Source: Spartobacteria bacterium
Lineage (GTDB): Bacteria > Verrucomicrobiota > Verrucomicrobiia > Chthoniobacterales > UBA10450
Length of the DNA stretch: 64,000 nt
Assembly (NCBI GenBank): GCA_003169695.1
Contig: PNAS01000073.1
Span: 107,098-171,097, forward strand
Direction of reading: 5' to 3'
Shown here: positions 43,916 through 50,540 of the stretch, piece after piece
Layout: each line of letters begins with the position of its first letter
Position numbering within the stretch: the first letter of the stretch is position 1
Program-made: the position numbers and the translations under genes
Notes under the pieces: generated by a model
Database searches by the model: none
What the model saw: the letters and a program-made list of their open reading frames with translations, nothing else
Told to the model about the DNA's origin: nothing

Positions 43916-46312
43916 ATGCTCGGAATTATCGAACGTTACACGAAATGGCTGCATGCGCAGTGGCCTGCGGGCACAGTGGAAAAGCTTCCCGTCTCCGGCC
44001 CAGACGGTGTCACTGCTCAACCTGGCGTAACGATCGTGGGTGATCTGACTGGAATTCCGCTGCTGAAGTTTTCTTCGCACACTGGCGCGCAGGCGGTTCG
44101 AGCGATTTTGCGCGAGCCCAATTTTCAAAAGAACGGCCGGCGCGATTCAGGCACGCTGGATCTCGCGATCATCGGTGCGGGGGTCGCCGGTATTTCGGCG
44201 GGGATCGAAGCGAAAAAGGCGGGACTGAATTTCGTGGTCTTCGAAGCGACTGAAATTTTTTCCACGGTCGTCAACTTCCCGAAAGCAAAACCAATCTACA
44301 CCTATCCCACGGAGATGAAGCTTGACGGCGGTTTGCAATTTTCCGCCGAGATCAAAGAAGCGCTCCTGGTGGAAATGGAAGAGCAGCGGCGTGCGGCCGG
44401 AATCGAAGTGGCCTGTGCGCGAATTGAACGCATCGAGCGAAAAGGCGGCGAGCTGATCTTGCACAAGGACGACAAGACGACGATCGCGGCGCGCCGGGCC
44501 ATCGTCGCGATCGGACGCAGCGGAAATTTCCGCAAGCTCGGCATTCCCGGCGAAGAGCTCGACAAGGTTTATAACCGTCTTTTCGATCCGCACGAGTTTG
44601 CCGGCCAGGACGCGCTCGTGGTCGGCGGAGGCGACTCCGCGCTGGAGACGGCGATCGCGCTTACGACTTGCGGCGCACGCGTCACGCTCAGTTATCGCCG
44701 GCAAGAATTGTCGCGCGCGAAGCCGGCGAACATCGAGAAAGTCGAGATGCTCGTGCATGATGCGTCGGCCGATGTGCAAATCGAGAACCCCACGTCCGAA
44801 CGCGTAAACACGGCGTTGACCTCCGGGATGCGCGGTCAGAAATCCGCCGGATCGCTCAAACTCGCGCTTGGCACCGAAGTGACACGGATCGAGCCGAAGC
44901 GGGTTTACCTGAAGAACGGAACCGAGGAGGTGTTACCCAACGACGTCGTTTTCACCATGCTCGGACGGGAAGCTCCGCTGGAGTTCTTTCGGCGTTCCGG
45001 CATTGCGATTGCGGGCGAGGGGACGTTACTCGGTTGGATCGCGCTCGGCCTTCTCCTCGCGTTTTGCATTTTCGTTTATTCCTGGAAATCGGGCGGGTTC
45101 GCGGAGACGTGGTTGAACCCGTTCCCGGAAGACATGCCGGTCGTTCTCAGCTCGTTAGGCGGCTGGTTTCAGGCGCAAGTGGCGGATCGCTCGACCCTAC
45201 TCGGCACGCTTGCGGTCTCACTGAAGTCGCGCTCGTTCTACTACACCTTTCTCTACAGCTCATGCATCGTTGCTTTTGGCATCGCGCGAATCCGGCGGCG
45301 CAAGACCCCGTACGTCACGTTGCAAACCACCGTGCTCATGCTCGTGCAGGTGGTGCCGCTTTTTATCCTGCCCGAGATCGTTCTGCCGTACTTCGGCTAC
45401 AACGGCTGGTTCGATCAGGGACCGGGCAAGACGATCGCCGATCACCTTTTCGAATCTTACATTTCGGCCCAGCAATACGCCGCCCATCAATGGCCGGGCT
45501 GGGGACATCCGCGCGCGTACTGGCGCGCCTACGGCTTCATCCTTGCGTGGCCGCTCATGGTCTACAACGTCTTCACGGATGCGCCGCTCGCCTGGTGGCT
45601 CGTGATCGCGTTCGTGCAAACGTTCGTCATCATTCCAGCAATCGTCTGGCGCTGGGGCAAGGGCGCGTACTGCGGGTGGATCTGCTCGTGTGGCGCGCTC
45701 GCCGAAACGATGGGCGACGAGCAACGCCACAAAATGCCGCATGGCCCATTCTGGAACCGATTGAACATGGCGGGGCAGGTAATCCTGGCGGTCGCCCTTC
45801 TTCTTTTGCTCGTTCGCGTCGCCGGATGGCTCTGGCCGCAGTCGATCGCCGCGTCCGCTTTCCATTTGCTCCTCGAAGGAAAAAATAGCGATGGGAAACT
45901 GATCACCTACGCCAACTACAAATGGCTCGTCGATGTGTTCCTGGGCGGCATCATTGGCGTCGGTCTTTATTTCAAATACTCCGGCCGCGTTTGGTGCCGG
46001 TTTTTTTGTCCGCTCGCGGCGCTCATGCACATCTATGCGCGTTTCTCGCGCTTCAGGATTTTTCCGGAGAAATCGAAATGCATTTCCTGCAACGTTTGCA
46101 CATCGGTTTGCCATCAAGGCATCGACATCATGAACTTCGCGAACAAAGGTCTGCCGATGCAGGATCCGGAATGCGTGCGCTGCTCCGCGTGCGTGCAGCA
46201 ATGTCCTACGGGCGTTCTCGCTTTTGGATATTATGACGGCGGGCACCGCGTCGTCCTCGACAAGATTCCGGCCTCACCTGTGCGAATGCGCGAAGGCCAT
46301 CGTCGTGATTAG
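43916..46312 (+). CDS. FAD/NAD(P) oxidoreductase fused to NapH-like polyferredoxin membrane module
   Basis: The 798-aa fusion starts with an N-terminal ~75 residues containing PGVTIVGDLTGIPLL, the motif that normally ends thioredoxin-reductase-like FAD domains. A dinucleotide-binding oxidoreductase follows, with FAD loop GAGVAG (87-92), NAD(P) loop VVGGGDSALE (about 236-245) and no CxxC disulfide pair. Several membrane helices (about 380-690) include CGWICSCGAL and CRFFCPLAAL. Two 4Fe-4S clusters come last: Cys722/725/728/732 and Cys753/756/759/763. It probably passes electrons between NAD(P)H and a membrane acceptor or donor. The exact reaction is unknown. The next gene is a broken upp. Confidence 0.85.
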   Translation: MLGIIERYTKWLHAQWPAGTVEKLPVSGPDGVTAQPGVTIVGDLTGIPLLKFSSHTGAQAVRAILREPNFQKNGRRDSGTLDLAIIGAGVAGISAGIEAKKAGLNFVVFEATEIFSTVVNFPKAKPIYTYPTEMKLDGGLQFSAEIKEALLVEMEEQRRAAGIEVACARIERIERKGGELILHKDDKTTIAARRAIVAIGRSGNFRKLGIPGEELDKVYNRLFDPHEFAGQDALVVGGGDSALETAIALTTCGARVTLSYRRQELSRAKPANIEKVEMLVHDASADVQIENPTSERVNTALTSGMRGQKSAGSLKLALGTEVTRIEPKRVYLKNGTEEVLPNDVVFTMLGREAPLEFFRRSGIAIAGEGTLLGWIALGLLLAFCIFVYSWKSGGFAETWLNPFPEDMPVVLSSLGGWFQAQVADRSTLLGTLAVSLKSRSFYYTFLYSSCIVAFGIARIRRRKTPYVTLQTTVLMLVQVVPLFILPEIVLPYFGYNGWFDQGPGKTIADHLFESYISAQQYAAHQWPGWGHPRAYWRAYGFILAWPLMVYNVFTDAPLAWWLVIAFVQTFVIIPAIVWRWGKGAYCGWICSCGALAETMGDEQRHKMPHGPFWNRLNMAGQVILAVALLLLLVRVAGWLWPQSIAASAFHLLLEGKNSDGKLITYANYKWLVDVFLGGIIGVGLYFKYSGRVWCRFFCPLAALMHIYARFSRFRIFPEKSKCISCNVCTSVCHQGIDIMNFANKGLPMQDPECVRCSACVQQCPTGVLAFGYYDGGHRVVLDKIPASPVRMREGHRRD

Positions 46313-46391: not shown

Positions 46392-46407
46392 AACACAGAC
46401 TCAAATC

Positions 46408-47032
46408 ATGGGCGAATACAGATCCTGGATCACCCTCTTGTCGCGACGGGACTCTCGATTCTCCGGGCAAAAACGACCACGCCCGATCTTTTTCGGCGCC
46501 AGTTGCAGGAGATCGCAATTCTTCTTTTCGCCGAAGCATCGCGCAGCTGGGGATCGCCCCGATTGTAGTTGAGACCCCGCTCGCATCATGCGCGGGAGCG
46601 GTTCTCGCAAAACCAATCGTTCTTGTCCCGATTCTCCGCGCCGGTCTCGGCATGCTAGACGGAATCATTCGGGTCGTTCCGGATGCGAGTATCGGCCATA
46701 TCGGACTTTATCGCGACGCCGAAACACTCCGGCCCGTCAGTTACTATGATCGTCTGCCGGTTAAGATCGCGGCCGCCGCAGTGCTGCTGCTGGATCCGAT
46801 GCTGGCGACCGGACACAGCGCCTGCGAAGCCGCCTCGATCTTAAAAGCGCAAGGCGCGCGGCATATCCAATTTCTCTGCGTGCTCGCGTGCCTGCCCGGC
46901 GTGCAGCAATTTCAGAGCGAACATCCGGACGTCCCAATCATCACTGCCGCGGTCGATCCCGGATTAAACAAGTTTGGTTACATCGTGCCCGGCCTTGGCG
47001 ACGCGGGTGATCGCTATTTCGGAACGGGTTAG
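46408..47032 (+). pseudogene. upp: Uracil phosphoribosyltransferase gene with frameshifts
   Basis: From ATG 46408 to stop 47032 the span is 208 codons, the normal Upp length, but the frame is broken. ILDHPLVATGLSILR from 46422 lies one frame away from the ATG. Translation then jumps again near 46546, where SRS meets LGIAPIVVETPLAS. Each jump fits loss of one base. The rest is intact, including VLVPILRAGLGMLD and the PRPP loop LLLDPMLATGHSA. The enzyme would convert uracil and PRPP to UMP. Either this is a recent pseudogene or the assembly has errors. Confidence 0.75.
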
Positions 47033-48137: not shown

Positions 48138-50540
48138 TCATAGACCGGTCGTATGCCAGAACTTCTGGAAGGCTCCCGGCCAGCTGCGATCCACCACGCT
48201 CTGGCGCGCTTTCTCTCCCATGCGCGCTCGCATTTTTTGATCGCCAACCAGAAGCGCAATCGCGCGCGCGACATCTTCTACATCGTGGGCTTTCGTCACC
48301 AGTCCATTGACTCCGTCCTCCACCAATTCCTTTGGGCCGCCGAGATCGGAGACGATCACCGGAAGTCCGGAAGCTTGCGCTTCGATGACCACGTTCCCAA
48401 AGGTATCGGTCGTGCTTGGAAAAACAAAAATGTCCGCCGATGCGTACGCCGTCGCGAGCGGCTCGCCCGTGAGATACCCCAGGAAAACCGCCTCGGGCAA
48501 CGCGGCCGCCAGCGCATCTGAGTGCGGGCCCTGCCCTACGATGAATAGCTGCACTGGCTGGCCCGCCTCGCGGATCTTGTCATAAGCTGCCGCCAGCACA
48601 TCGAGATCTTTCTCGCGCGAGATGCGGCCGACATATAGCAATCGAACGCTGCTGCCATTCGCTCCGAAGCGCTGCCAGTAGGATGGATCGCGCCGCGCCG
48701 GATGGAACAAATCGGTGTCGAGCCCGCGCGGCAGGATCTTCAACTTCTCCGGCGCAAACCCGCGGTCGATCCAGCATTTCCGGTATTGCTCCGAGTTCAC
48801 GAAGACCGTGTCGATCTGCCCGTAGAGCCACTGCATGTAGCTCCAGGCCAGGCTTTCGAGGAAACGGTCTTCTGTCAAAATGCGGACGTACTCCGGAATA
48901 TCGGTGTGATAAATCCCGCTGGTTTGCAGGTTCAACATCTTAGCGGCCAGCAATCCCGTGAGGCCAATCGGTCCGGGCGTGCTGATAATGATCTCGGTGA
49001 ATTGTTCCCGCTGAACGTAATCGAGGATCTGCATGATGGGCGGGAAGCTCAGCCGTTGCAGCTCGTACTCCGGCAATTCGAACTCGCCAATCGGCCTGAA
49101 ATTCTTGATCGGAATGTCGTCGACCTTTAGATCCCGGCGGGAGGTAATGACTATCAACTTTTCGCCGGCCGCAACGCCCGCCGCCGTCATCTTCCGAATC
49201 GTGTTTGCGACCCCATTCACGTCCTCGAGCGTGTCGGTAAACCACGCCCGCTTTCGGTTTTGCAGCGCAAGCGGAATCGAACCTGTCATCTGCAAGAAAA
49301 TCTCCCGCAGCCACCTGCGAGAAGGAGCCTGGCTATGGAAAGCGTAGATGTAGGGCGAGAGCAGAACTATGATCGGTGCGATCCCGCTCAATGCCTGCAT
49401 GCTTTCGATCACGTTCCCGGTTCTGATCTGCTGGACGAATTTCTCGAAGAAACGAAACGCGAGCTGTTCGCAAACCAGGTTCGCCATTAGGAAAGTTCGC
49501 CGCTCCGGCTCTGTCACGCCTTCCATCTCCTTGGCCAACTGCGCCTTCACTTTTGGGCGCGCGAAATGTTTCGAGAGGCCCTTCCAAAGCGAAACGTTCC
49601 CCGGTTTCGCCAGCTCGAAAATTTTTCCAGACATCACGCCTTGGGCGATGAAGGTGGCTTTTTCGCGCAAGGTGAATTCGGTCGGATCGCGCCCTTCCAT
49701 GAACCGCGAGAACATCGTCTCCAACAATGGAGCGCTCGGTCCGAGGCGTTCCGTGAAGCGGTCTTGGATAAAACAGGAAACGGTGTTGTAAAAACCGTGG
49801 GACAAGGCGAGCGGAGTGCCGCCCTCGCCCCGCGCAACGCATTTACCTTCGCGGACGTGCTGAAGAAATTCCTTCGCGGTTCGTGTGCGCGGTGTTTCCG
49901 TGTAAGAGCCGGCCACAAACTGTCCGCCGTGGTCGTCCGAGCCGCCGGTGAAGATCTTCTTCCATGGCTCGGCGTGGGTCGGTTGGAGATCATGACGGTT
50001 CGCCAGCTCCTCGATTTTTTGGGACGTCAGGCCGGAGAGGAGTTCCCGGGCCAGCACGCTCAGGAGTGCGTCGCGCAAGCCGTTGATGCCTTCAAAGTGT
50101 TTGAAAAGGAGAATCAGCCGTTCGAGGTGGGAAGCTTCGAGTTTGCCGTTGATGCTGTAGAGCGGGTGCGCAACCGAATGGCTTATCGCCGCTTTTTGGA
50201 GATAGCTTTGCAGGTCGTAGATGTTCTCTCGAAGAGCCGAGATTTCTGAATGCTGCGCTTCGGAAATTCCCCAGACGAGCAGGTGAAGTTTGCACGGATC
50301 GTGAGGAAAATACGTAGTAACTTCCTCACTGATAAAAGTATGATCAAGCTCTGCTATTGCGAGATTGCCATCGATCGTGTCGTGATCGGTGATTGTAACG
50401 AAATCCATTCCGCGCTCGCGAAGTAACCGATAGAGCTCTCGCGGATCGGTATAACTGTCTGGAAAATCGAACCGCCGAAAGAGCCACTCCTCGGACCGCG
50501 CGCTGAAGCGGGAATGAATGTGGAGATCGCAAAGGCTCAT
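48138..50540 (-). CDS. PHP-domain phosphoesterase fused to GT4 glycosyltransferase
   Basis: The 800-aa protein starts with a PHP domain (about 1-250): CDLHIHSRFSARS and TITDHDTIDG hold metal-binding His/Asp, and GSDDHGG a later ligand set. A linker follows, then a GT-B glycosyltransferase (about 440-800) with the GT4 donor site FPSTTDTFGNVVIEAQASG. The PHP part may be a hydrolase of a phosphorylated or nucleotide-linked sugar. Substrates cannot be read. The deacetylase gene upstream on the same strand (10 bp away) suggests a polysaccharide or glycolipid pathway. Confidence 0.85.
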   Translation of the reverse strand: MSLCDLHIHSRFSARSEEWLFRRFDFPDSYTDPRELYRLLRERGMDFVTITDHDTIDGNLAIAELDHTFISEEVTTYFPHDPCKLHLLVWGISEAQHSEISALRENIYDLQSYLQKAAISHSVAHPLYSINGKLEASHLERLILLFKHFEGINGLRDALLSVLARELLSGLTSQKIEELANRHDLQPTHAEPWKKIFTGGSDDHGGQFVAGSYTETPRTRTAKEFLQHVREGKCVARGEGGTPLALSHGFYNTVSCFIQDRFTERLGPSAPLLETMFSRFMEGRDPTEFTLREKATFIAQGVMSGKIFELAKPGNVSLWKGLSKHFARPKVKAQLAKEMEGVTEPERRTFLMANLVCEQLAFRFFEKFVQQIRTGNVIESMQALSGIAPIIVLLSPYIYAFHSQAPSRRWLREIFLQMTGSIPLALQNRKRAWFTDTLEDVNGVANTIRKMTAAGVAAGEKLIVITSRRDLKVDDIPIKNFRPIGEFELPEYELQRLSFPPIMQILDYVQREQFTEIIISTPGPIGLTGLLAAKMLNLQTSGIYHTDIPEYVRILTEDRFLESLAWSYMQWLYGQIDTVFVNSEQYRKCWIDRGFAPEKLKILPRGLDTDLFHPARRDPSYWQRFGANGSSVRLLYVGRISREKDLDVLAAAYDKIREAGQPVQLFIVGQGPHSDALAAALPEAVFLGYLTGEPLATAYASADIFVFPSTTDTFGNVVIEAQASGLPVIVSDLGGPKELVEDGVNGLVTKAHDVEDVARAIALLVGDQKMRARMGEKARQSVVDRSWPGAFQKFWHTTGL

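Follow-up and report, generated by a model that had tools for sequence, protein, structure and literature searches.

A predicted circularly permuted flavoprotein fused to a NapH-like membrane ferredoxin, and its association with arsenosugar genes

The 64,000-nucleotide stretch of DNA analysed here (the window; contig PNAS01000073.1, positions 107,098 to 171,097 of the forward strand, assembly GCA_003169695.1) comes from a Spartobacteria bacterium and carries an open reading frame at 43916..46312 (+) which starts with ATG, has no internal stops and encodes a protein of 798 amino acids. We read this protein as a circularly permuted flavoprotein linked to NAD(P)H (reduced nicotinamide adenine dinucleotide (phosphate)) and fused to a NapH/NosR-type membrane ferredoxin, which in many hosts probably feeds electrons into the making of organoarsenicals; the probability of this reading is put at about 0.72. 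Its structural core is well supported: the gene product is a natural circular permutant from the YpdA/thioredoxin reductase (TrxR) superfamily, in which the usual ending of the flavin adenine dinucleotide (FAD) domain, a strand, a GD motif and a helix, is found at the N-terminus. With the closing element there, the oxidoreductase can continue at its C-terminal end into a membrane module of NapH/NosR type and a ferredoxin with two clusters. The layout is drawn from the reading frame, Pfam and NCBIfam matches, a homologue alignment and an AlphaFold2 model.

Each component belongs to a known kind; what is new to us is their rotated order, their fusion and the genomic setting. Among the matches listed, the open-access literature contained no description of a natural circular permutation in this flavoprotein superfamily, nor of this permuted family or its arsenosugar role. 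The same matches, which did not cover the ArsS papers themselves, named no redox partner for arsenosugar biosynthesis, for which the genomic link with arsS now provides a candidate.

Evidence for a circular permutation of the FAD domain

The features of a flavoprotein with two dinucleotide-binding domains, the FAD-binding GxGxxG, the NAD(P) GGG and the closing GD element, are all present, in rotated order. The GD motif (residues 42-43) is followed by GxGxxG (87-92), GGGDSA (237-242), GREAPLEFF (350-358) and the first membrane helix (371-391); the C-terminal half continues with CX3CSC (586-592), CX3CP (694-699) and two 4Fe-4S motifs (722-763). The GD element that follows the NAD(P) domain in TrxR is absent from that position, and the FAD-closing element T..PGV.IVGDLTGIPLLK (residues ~30-66) precedes GxGxxG. 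A preliminary description of the stretch had placed a GD-type closing signature, PGVTIVGDLTGIPLL (residues 36-50), ahead of the first GxGxxG and had proposed a circular permutation of the FAD domain; the first claim holds and the second is supported.

The transposed element comprises residues 30-66 (44003..44113 (+); T..PG..I.GDLTGIPLLK and a helix), identified by its profile matches and by a strand at 38-41 and a helix at 50-66. Its flavin-binding GD motif, G42-D43 (44039..44044 (+)), is nearly invariant in an alignment of 136 homologues, with G in 132 rows, a gap in three and E in one at the first position, and D in 128, E in five and a gap in three at the second (D or E in 133/136). The first part of the FAD domain follows at residues 79-208 (44150..44539 (+)), with GxGxxG at 44174-44191, as judged from Pfam, NCBIfam and PDB matches and the model. 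The NAD(P) domain spans residues 209-330 (44540..44905 (+)), including GGGDSA, a YRRxxxxR stretch at 260-267 and a Pfam Pyr_redox match at 233-275; G237 and G239 are found in 136/136 rows. The second part of the FAD domain (residues 331-369; 44906..45022 (+)) ends at GREAPLEFFRRSGIAIAGEG, the permutation breakpoint, with no closing GD ahead of the membrane helix, and past 'TMLGREAPLEFFRRSGIAIAGEG' the chain runs into the hydrophobic helix modelled at 371-391. That the oxidoreductase would enter the membrane without a GD motif had likewise been anticipated, and only 2/136 rows fit the pattern [hydrophobic]-x-x-GD within residues 344-392. A G[DE] dipeptide does occur somewhere in residues 352-392 in 117/136 homologues ('I.GE'; G367-E368 in the window protein), but it is not taken for the closing element because it lies 17 residues past G350 and no strand of at least three residues directly precedes it in the model.

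Profile comparisons assign the N-terminal segment to the end of a FAD domain. A profile of residues 1-67 alone, built from 53 sequences (52 loci and the window), was compared with all PDB chains and gave 33 matches at E<=10, of which six are unrelated and 27 are AhpF, dihydrolipoyl dehydrogenase or glutathione, mycothione, 2-oxopropyl-CoM, thioredoxin or related reductases. All 27 fall downstream of the NAD(P) domain, with the GD visible in five printed alignments; since the best E is only 0.028, their weight lies in this consistency. In hhalign, the same N-terminal segment against a profile of 23 TrxRs (taken from 31 loci of related genomes, the other eight having been missed by the motif filter) aligned residues 32-43 with TrxR residues 265-276 (T..PGV..GD) at E 1.8e-4 and a score of 31.1, compared with at most 17.5 for 20 column shuffles. 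When the chain was aligned globally to TrxR in permuted order (79-369 joined to 20-70), the alignment ran end to end with a score of 129.0, compared with 115.2 in native order, 114.9 without the N-terminal segment and 104.7-120.5 for 20 shuffles. As far as the sequences tell, the homologue of the C-terminal element of TrxR-type FAD domains stands ahead of the N-terminal element, as it would in a circular permutant.

The predicted structures point the same way. The full-length AlphaFold2 model, made with 73 sequences, has a mean predicted local distance difference test (pLDDT) of 85.5 and a predicted template modelling score (pTM) of 0.79, and residues 1-378 modelled alone have a mean pLDDT of 86.3. 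In both models residues 31-40 and 51-70 reach pLDDT values of 89-95, and 38-41 is the sole strand of at least three residues within 1-78, with single bridge residues at 25 and 32; no independent sheet domain, which had been looked for in the N-terminus, is apparent. Because DSSP calls strands only when they are hydrogen-bonded, the partner of strand 38-41 should lie at residue 79 or beyond, in the reductase domain, a pairing read from the secondary structure and not from coordinates. Motif order, shuffle-controlled profile tests, conservation and predicted secondary structure together make the circular permutation well supported.

The transposed segment is shorter than initially proposed. Residues 1-75 had been expected to complete the FAD domain, and about residues 30-66 do appear to belong to it, whereas residues 1-20 probably dock on the membrane module, because their pLDDT drops from 80/68 to 65/49 once the membrane part is removed. 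They lie in a conserved N-terminal helix (residues 1-29; 43916..44002 (+)) marked by Y8, W11, L12, H13, W16, P17, G19 and E22. The first seven of these residues are invariant in the 73 sequences (72 loci and the window), and no Pfam match to residues 1-25 is among those listed.

Domain architecture and relation to known proteins

Behind the breakpoint lies a polytopic membrane module (residues 370-715; 45023..46060 (+)), recognized by hydropathy and by long modelled helices at 371-391, 439-461, 465-495, 559-580, 618-639 and 668-683. It holds a C586-x3-C590-x-C592 motif (45671..45691 (+); 136/136 homologues), of the NapH CX3C type with S for P and an extra cysteine, and a C694-x3-C698 motif followed by P699 (45995..46009 (+); 135/136). 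Two [4Fe-4S] motifs, C722/725/728/732 and C753/756/759/763, follow at residues 716-770 (46061..46225 (+)), with Fer4_10, Fer4_9 and other Fer4 matches, and are kept in 134-135/136. In all, 13 cysteines, the five of the CX3C region (C586, C590, C592, C694, C698) and the eight of the cluster motifs, are retained in 134-136/136 homologues, in agreement with the CxxxC and two 4Fe-4S motifs described at the outset.

Among established families, Pfam recognizes only an incomplete oxidoreductase (Pyr_redox_3 at 85-367, Pyr_redox_2 at 82-367) besides the Fe-S membrane part. The NCBIfam models for YpdA/Bdr (TIGR04018, 126.9 bits, cut-off 339.9), TrxR (TIGR01292, 77.6 bits, cut-off 343.45) and NapH (TIGR02163, 50 bits at 570-770, cut-off 213.05) all match below their cut-offs. 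By E-value the best phmmer and Foldseek matches are YpdA/Bdr proteins (PDB 7a76, 7a7b), which share the FAD and NAD(P) domains at 22-25% identity; Foldseek E-values of 1.1e-17 and 3.7e-20 are followed by TrxRs, and TrxR-type ferredoxin-NADP reductases are also listed. YpdA as a family label was rejected on its score and on a missing cysteine. In YpdA/Bdr the cysteine beside GxGxxG has a functional role; the 7a76 chain reads GGGPCG, where the aligned stretch of the window protein is GAGVAG, with A instead. The window protein differs further from YpdA/Bdr by having the closing element at the other end and by the fused membrane and ferredoxin parts.

The TrxR-type ferredoxin-NADP reductases (PDB 6gar, 5ygq, 3ab1), matched by sequence and in the case of 6gar also by fold, combine a TrxR fold with ferredoxin as electron partner. 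These enzymes lack CxxC and are soluble, with a separate ferredoxin and the motifs in normal order. The window protein, too, is no ordinary TrxR, as had been concluded from the lack of a CxxC pair: none is found in its NAD(P) domain, the lone cysteine there, C252, occurs in 50/136 rows, and no conserved thiol pair was seen, since no column of residues 1-585 has a cysteine in more than 73/136 rows and the top column, C384, sits in a membrane helix. These absences make thiol chemistry unlikely. The resemblance of the C-terminal half is to the membrane module common to NapH, NosR and RdhC, to which a part of PMC5928378 ascribes several membrane helices and two CX3CP motifs of unassigned function and, in NapH and NosR, two C-terminal 4Fe-4S motifs. 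Of these NapH/NosR-type traits, the window protein has both 4Fe-4S motifs and the second CX3CP, while its first motif reads CX3CSC in place of CX3CP and a FAD/NAD(P) flavoprotein stands in front, unlike the flavin mononucleotide (FMN) domain, or none, of those proteins.

A family with a fixed motif order

A scan of genome contigs gave 186 pattern matches, of which 164 encode relatives, and the best 80 loci of the 164 were used. The 73-sequence set leaves out eight of the 80, namely L038 and L088 (frame breaks), L036 (contig end) and the near kin L030, L032, L033, L073 and L078. Record titles name Verrucomicrobia, Planctomycetes, Myxococcales, Acidobacteria, Latescibacteria, Gemmatimonadetes and Eisenbacteria, as well as Krumholzibacteriia, Sumerlaeia, Desulfobacterota, Chlorobi, an Alphaproteobacterium and Alteromonas, though most relatives are metagenome bins whose taxon labels may be wrong. 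The permuted family is present in 16/288 Verrucomicrobiota genomes (E<=1e-30) and in 42/294 genomes of the phylum of one relative, a Planctomycetaceae bin (L075; E<=1e-60).

Comparison of homologues, suggested at the outset as a check on the motif order, placed the GD element before GxGxxG throughout the family. Seven further members were read, two of them close (L144, L145), two at 42-56% (L149, L150) and three at 34-44% (L146-L148) within the matched stretches; together with nine others, all 16 have the GD element ahead of GxGxxG except L194, the frame of which is cut by a contig end. Judged by these alignments, the permuted order is fixed across a family of many named phyla and no accident of one gene, and the freeing of the oxidoreductase end for membrane fusion is the suggested structural reason.

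Variants of the element were also noted. A second subfamily with its own conserved pattern (G348:C179, G370:C6, G402:C2, G509:C42, L146 and L148) is mostly of the GDLAGAPVIK type and by eye lacks the WLH..WPAG start; G348 carries both types. The member at L207:12644-14905 (-) has GE for GD (GELTGIPLL), one form of the E seen at the D43 position in the alignment.

Association with arsenosugar genes

Among the flanks of the 80 loci no conserved operon partner was found, no neighbour cluster occurring in more than 12/80. The more frequent neighbours were DUF547 (12), GT87-like (9), debranching enzyme (9) and treZ-like (8) proteins, the rarer ones GT2 CelA-like (6), GT2 AglJ-like (5) and arsS (4). 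The debranching enzyme and treZ-like neighbours mostly reflect gene order shared among close kin of the window, and the remaining, scattered neighbours led to the tests for arsS. ArsS is a radical S-adenosylmethionine enzyme that adenosylates arsenic in oxo-arsenosugar synthesis (excerpt of PMC12159101, citing Cheng et al. 2021), and a TIGR04282 gene is called arsenosugar-related in an excerpt of PMC8801600.

In the 288 Verrucomicrobiota genomes the 16 with the family and the 18 with arsS (TIGR04167) overlap in nine, compared with 1.0 expected (Fisher p=1.4e-8); arsS thus occurs in 9/16 family-positive versus 9/272 family-negative genomes. The nine double positives are spread over six family codes (f1, f4, f6, f15, f22, f34). 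In the 294 genomes of the second phylum, 42 with the family and 90 with arsS (one scoring under the cut-off) overlap in 29, compared with 12.9 expected (Fisher p=2.9e-8), or 29/42 versus 61/252; both p-values ignore the relatedness of the genomes. As in known arsenosugar clusters (ArsS TIGR04167, ArsM, TIGR04282, TIGR04283), the family gene is recurrently linked to arsS and arsM: in 12/38 double-positive genomes the distance to arsS is below 5 kb (531 to 4859 bp), with four of the 12 having nearly equal spacing and probably being close kin. Nine of the 12 linked loci were read, and arsS is co-directional with the family gene in 9/9; at L207 genes on the opposite strand stand between the two, which do not form one operon there. 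By sequence clustering the nine loci contain arsM-like (5), DUF547 (6), TIGR04282-like (5), GT87-like (4) and methylthioadenosine phosphorylase (MTAP)-like (2) genes.

Apparent arsenosugar gene rows with an MTAP-like nucleoside phosphorylase are found at L213:6926-14240 and L212. The former (L213 and L087 are apparently one contig) runs on one strand as TetR, DUF547, arsS (420.6 bits, cut-off 300), arsM-like gene (181.1, cut-off 263), family gene, MTAP-like phosphorylase (132.8, cut-off 274.85) and TIGR04282 (180.6, cut-off 134). The phosphorylase is a plausible candidate for stripping adenine from an adenosyl-arsenical. A DUF547 protein, for which no role is known, recurs in such rows.

Proposed function and alternative explanations

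In the proposed mechanism FAD would be reduced by NAD(P)H on the cytoplasmic face and would hand electrons one at a time to the pair of [4Fe-4S] clusters, in the manner of TrxR-type ferredoxin-NADP reductases, though here inside a single polypeptide; clusters and CX3C motifs would then pass them on to a membrane-associated acceptor. The one-polypeptide NAD(P)H-ferredoxin-membrane electron conduit of the preliminary description is, on these motifs, plausible. The direction of electron flow, the preferred nucleotide and the acceptor are all part of the proposal, and the YRRxxxxR stretch hints at NADPH. In hosts with the arsS/arsM/DUF547/glycosyltransferase cluster the acceptor would probably belong to arsenosugar synthesis, being ArsS itself or the steps of reductive arsenic methylation. 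More tentative, and given somewhat less than even odds, is the further proposal that a single-chain NAD(P)H-FAD-Fe-S-membrane carrier, arisen by permutation of the FAD domain, was recruited as a dedicated source of reductant for the synthesis of arsenosugars, perhaps of other arsenolipids, serving ArsS or reductive methylation.

Several results weigh against a permuted FAD domain. The PDB matches of the N-terminal profile are individually weak and several come from near-identical entries, and the local hhalign alignment of the permuted order stops at residue 359, short of the N-terminal segment (124.4 versus 124.2 for the native order). The pTM of the residue 1-378 model is 0.70, where a higher value had been hoped for; pLDDT over the GD-bearing residues 41-50 is as low as 65 in the full-length model and 76 in the shorter one, and that the GD touches FAD is a prediction from secondary structure. 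The top Foldseek match, 7a7b_A, has a target-normalised TM-score of only 0.43-0.44 at 9-12 A root-mean-square deviation, and the highest among the 50 matches listed is 0.58 (TrxRs); these scores are modest, and a sequential aligner cannot display a permutation. The top 100 couplings (136 sequences, effective number 112) include 7/8227 pairs between the N-terminus and FAD part 1, 8/18957 between N-terminus and membrane part and 3/6035 between N-terminus and NAD domain; the pairs 62-98 and 34-364 fit the expected packing, but membrane pairs rank equally high and the couplings are not counted as evidence. Residues 1-66 might on such grounds be a regulatory or docking segment which resembles the closing element by chance, in front of a truncated FAD domain. 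The weak profile matches and the low model values would suit that explanation, but 27 of 33 unselected matches fall in one superfamily, the shuffle controls score lower, the GD is near-invariant and strand 38-41 needs a partner beyond residues 1-78, so that it is very improbable. Slighter still are the chances of a membrane-anchored disulfide reductase of the YpdA/TrxR type: although YpdA and TrxR are the best matches, a conserved CxxC is absent, cysteine columns in residues 1-585 do not exceed 73/136 and an alanine replaces the YpdA cysteine.

The arsenic role of the family is likewise inferred from genomic association, which has its exceptions. Family-positive genomes lack arsS in 7/16 and 13/42 cases, 25/38 double positives carry the pair on separate contigs and one has 2.1 Mb between them. 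Of 25 homologue genomes from the 80 loci that were tested, 17 have arsS above the cut-off, and arsS lies within only 4/80 loci. The window gene itself is not near ars genes, arsS and arsM of its own genome being on another contig (C84), and no arsenosugar-named NCBIfam model is among the matches listed for the window protein (25/157 families). An NAD(P)H:quinone oxidoreductase, or an enzyme running the opposite way, with a membrane module coupled to the quinone pool, as supposed for NapH, and an incidental arsenic neighbourhood, would account for the many homologues outside ars clusters and for the NapH-like module and NapH match. NapH-like proteins are, in the parts of PMC8238504 and PMC5928378 concerned, quinol-linked in some cases, and the former proposes that they carry electrons across the membrane, in some cases probably from quinol. 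In two phyla the family occurs together with arsS and, where linked, points in the same direction, which speaks against such an enzyme, as does the distribution of neighbours, since no respiratory partner is conserved in the flanks of the 80 loci, and we consider it unlikely, if the most serious of the alternatives. The membrane ferredoxin part might also itself act as a metal(loid) reductase on arsenate or methylarsenate instead of feeding ArsS, by analogy to CcoG, which is a cupric reductase. Clustering with arsM and arsS would fit this, and arsenic methylation requires repeated reduction; evidence of a substrate site is missing and the family is also found where arsS is absent, which leaves this explanation the less likely of the two. 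Electron supply to organoarsenical synthesis by a permuted flavoprotein is the reading we prefer over these.

Neighbouring genes in the window

The window gene stands alone; its opposite-strand neighbours are a debranching enzyme and an alpha-amylase-family protein of apparent treZ type. Downstream of it, upp (uracil phosphoribosyltransferase; 46401-47029 (+)) is split in two frames, 46401-46550 and 46526-47029, and is either a pseudogene or the product of an assembly error; shortly past the gene copies in L030, L031, L032 and L038, upp matches lie in one frame. At 48138-50540 (-) an 800-aa protein has a group 4/1 glycosyltransferase as its C-terminal half (Pfam) and, by eye and with no Pfam match, a PHP-type phosphoesterase at its N-terminus, an unusual fusion.

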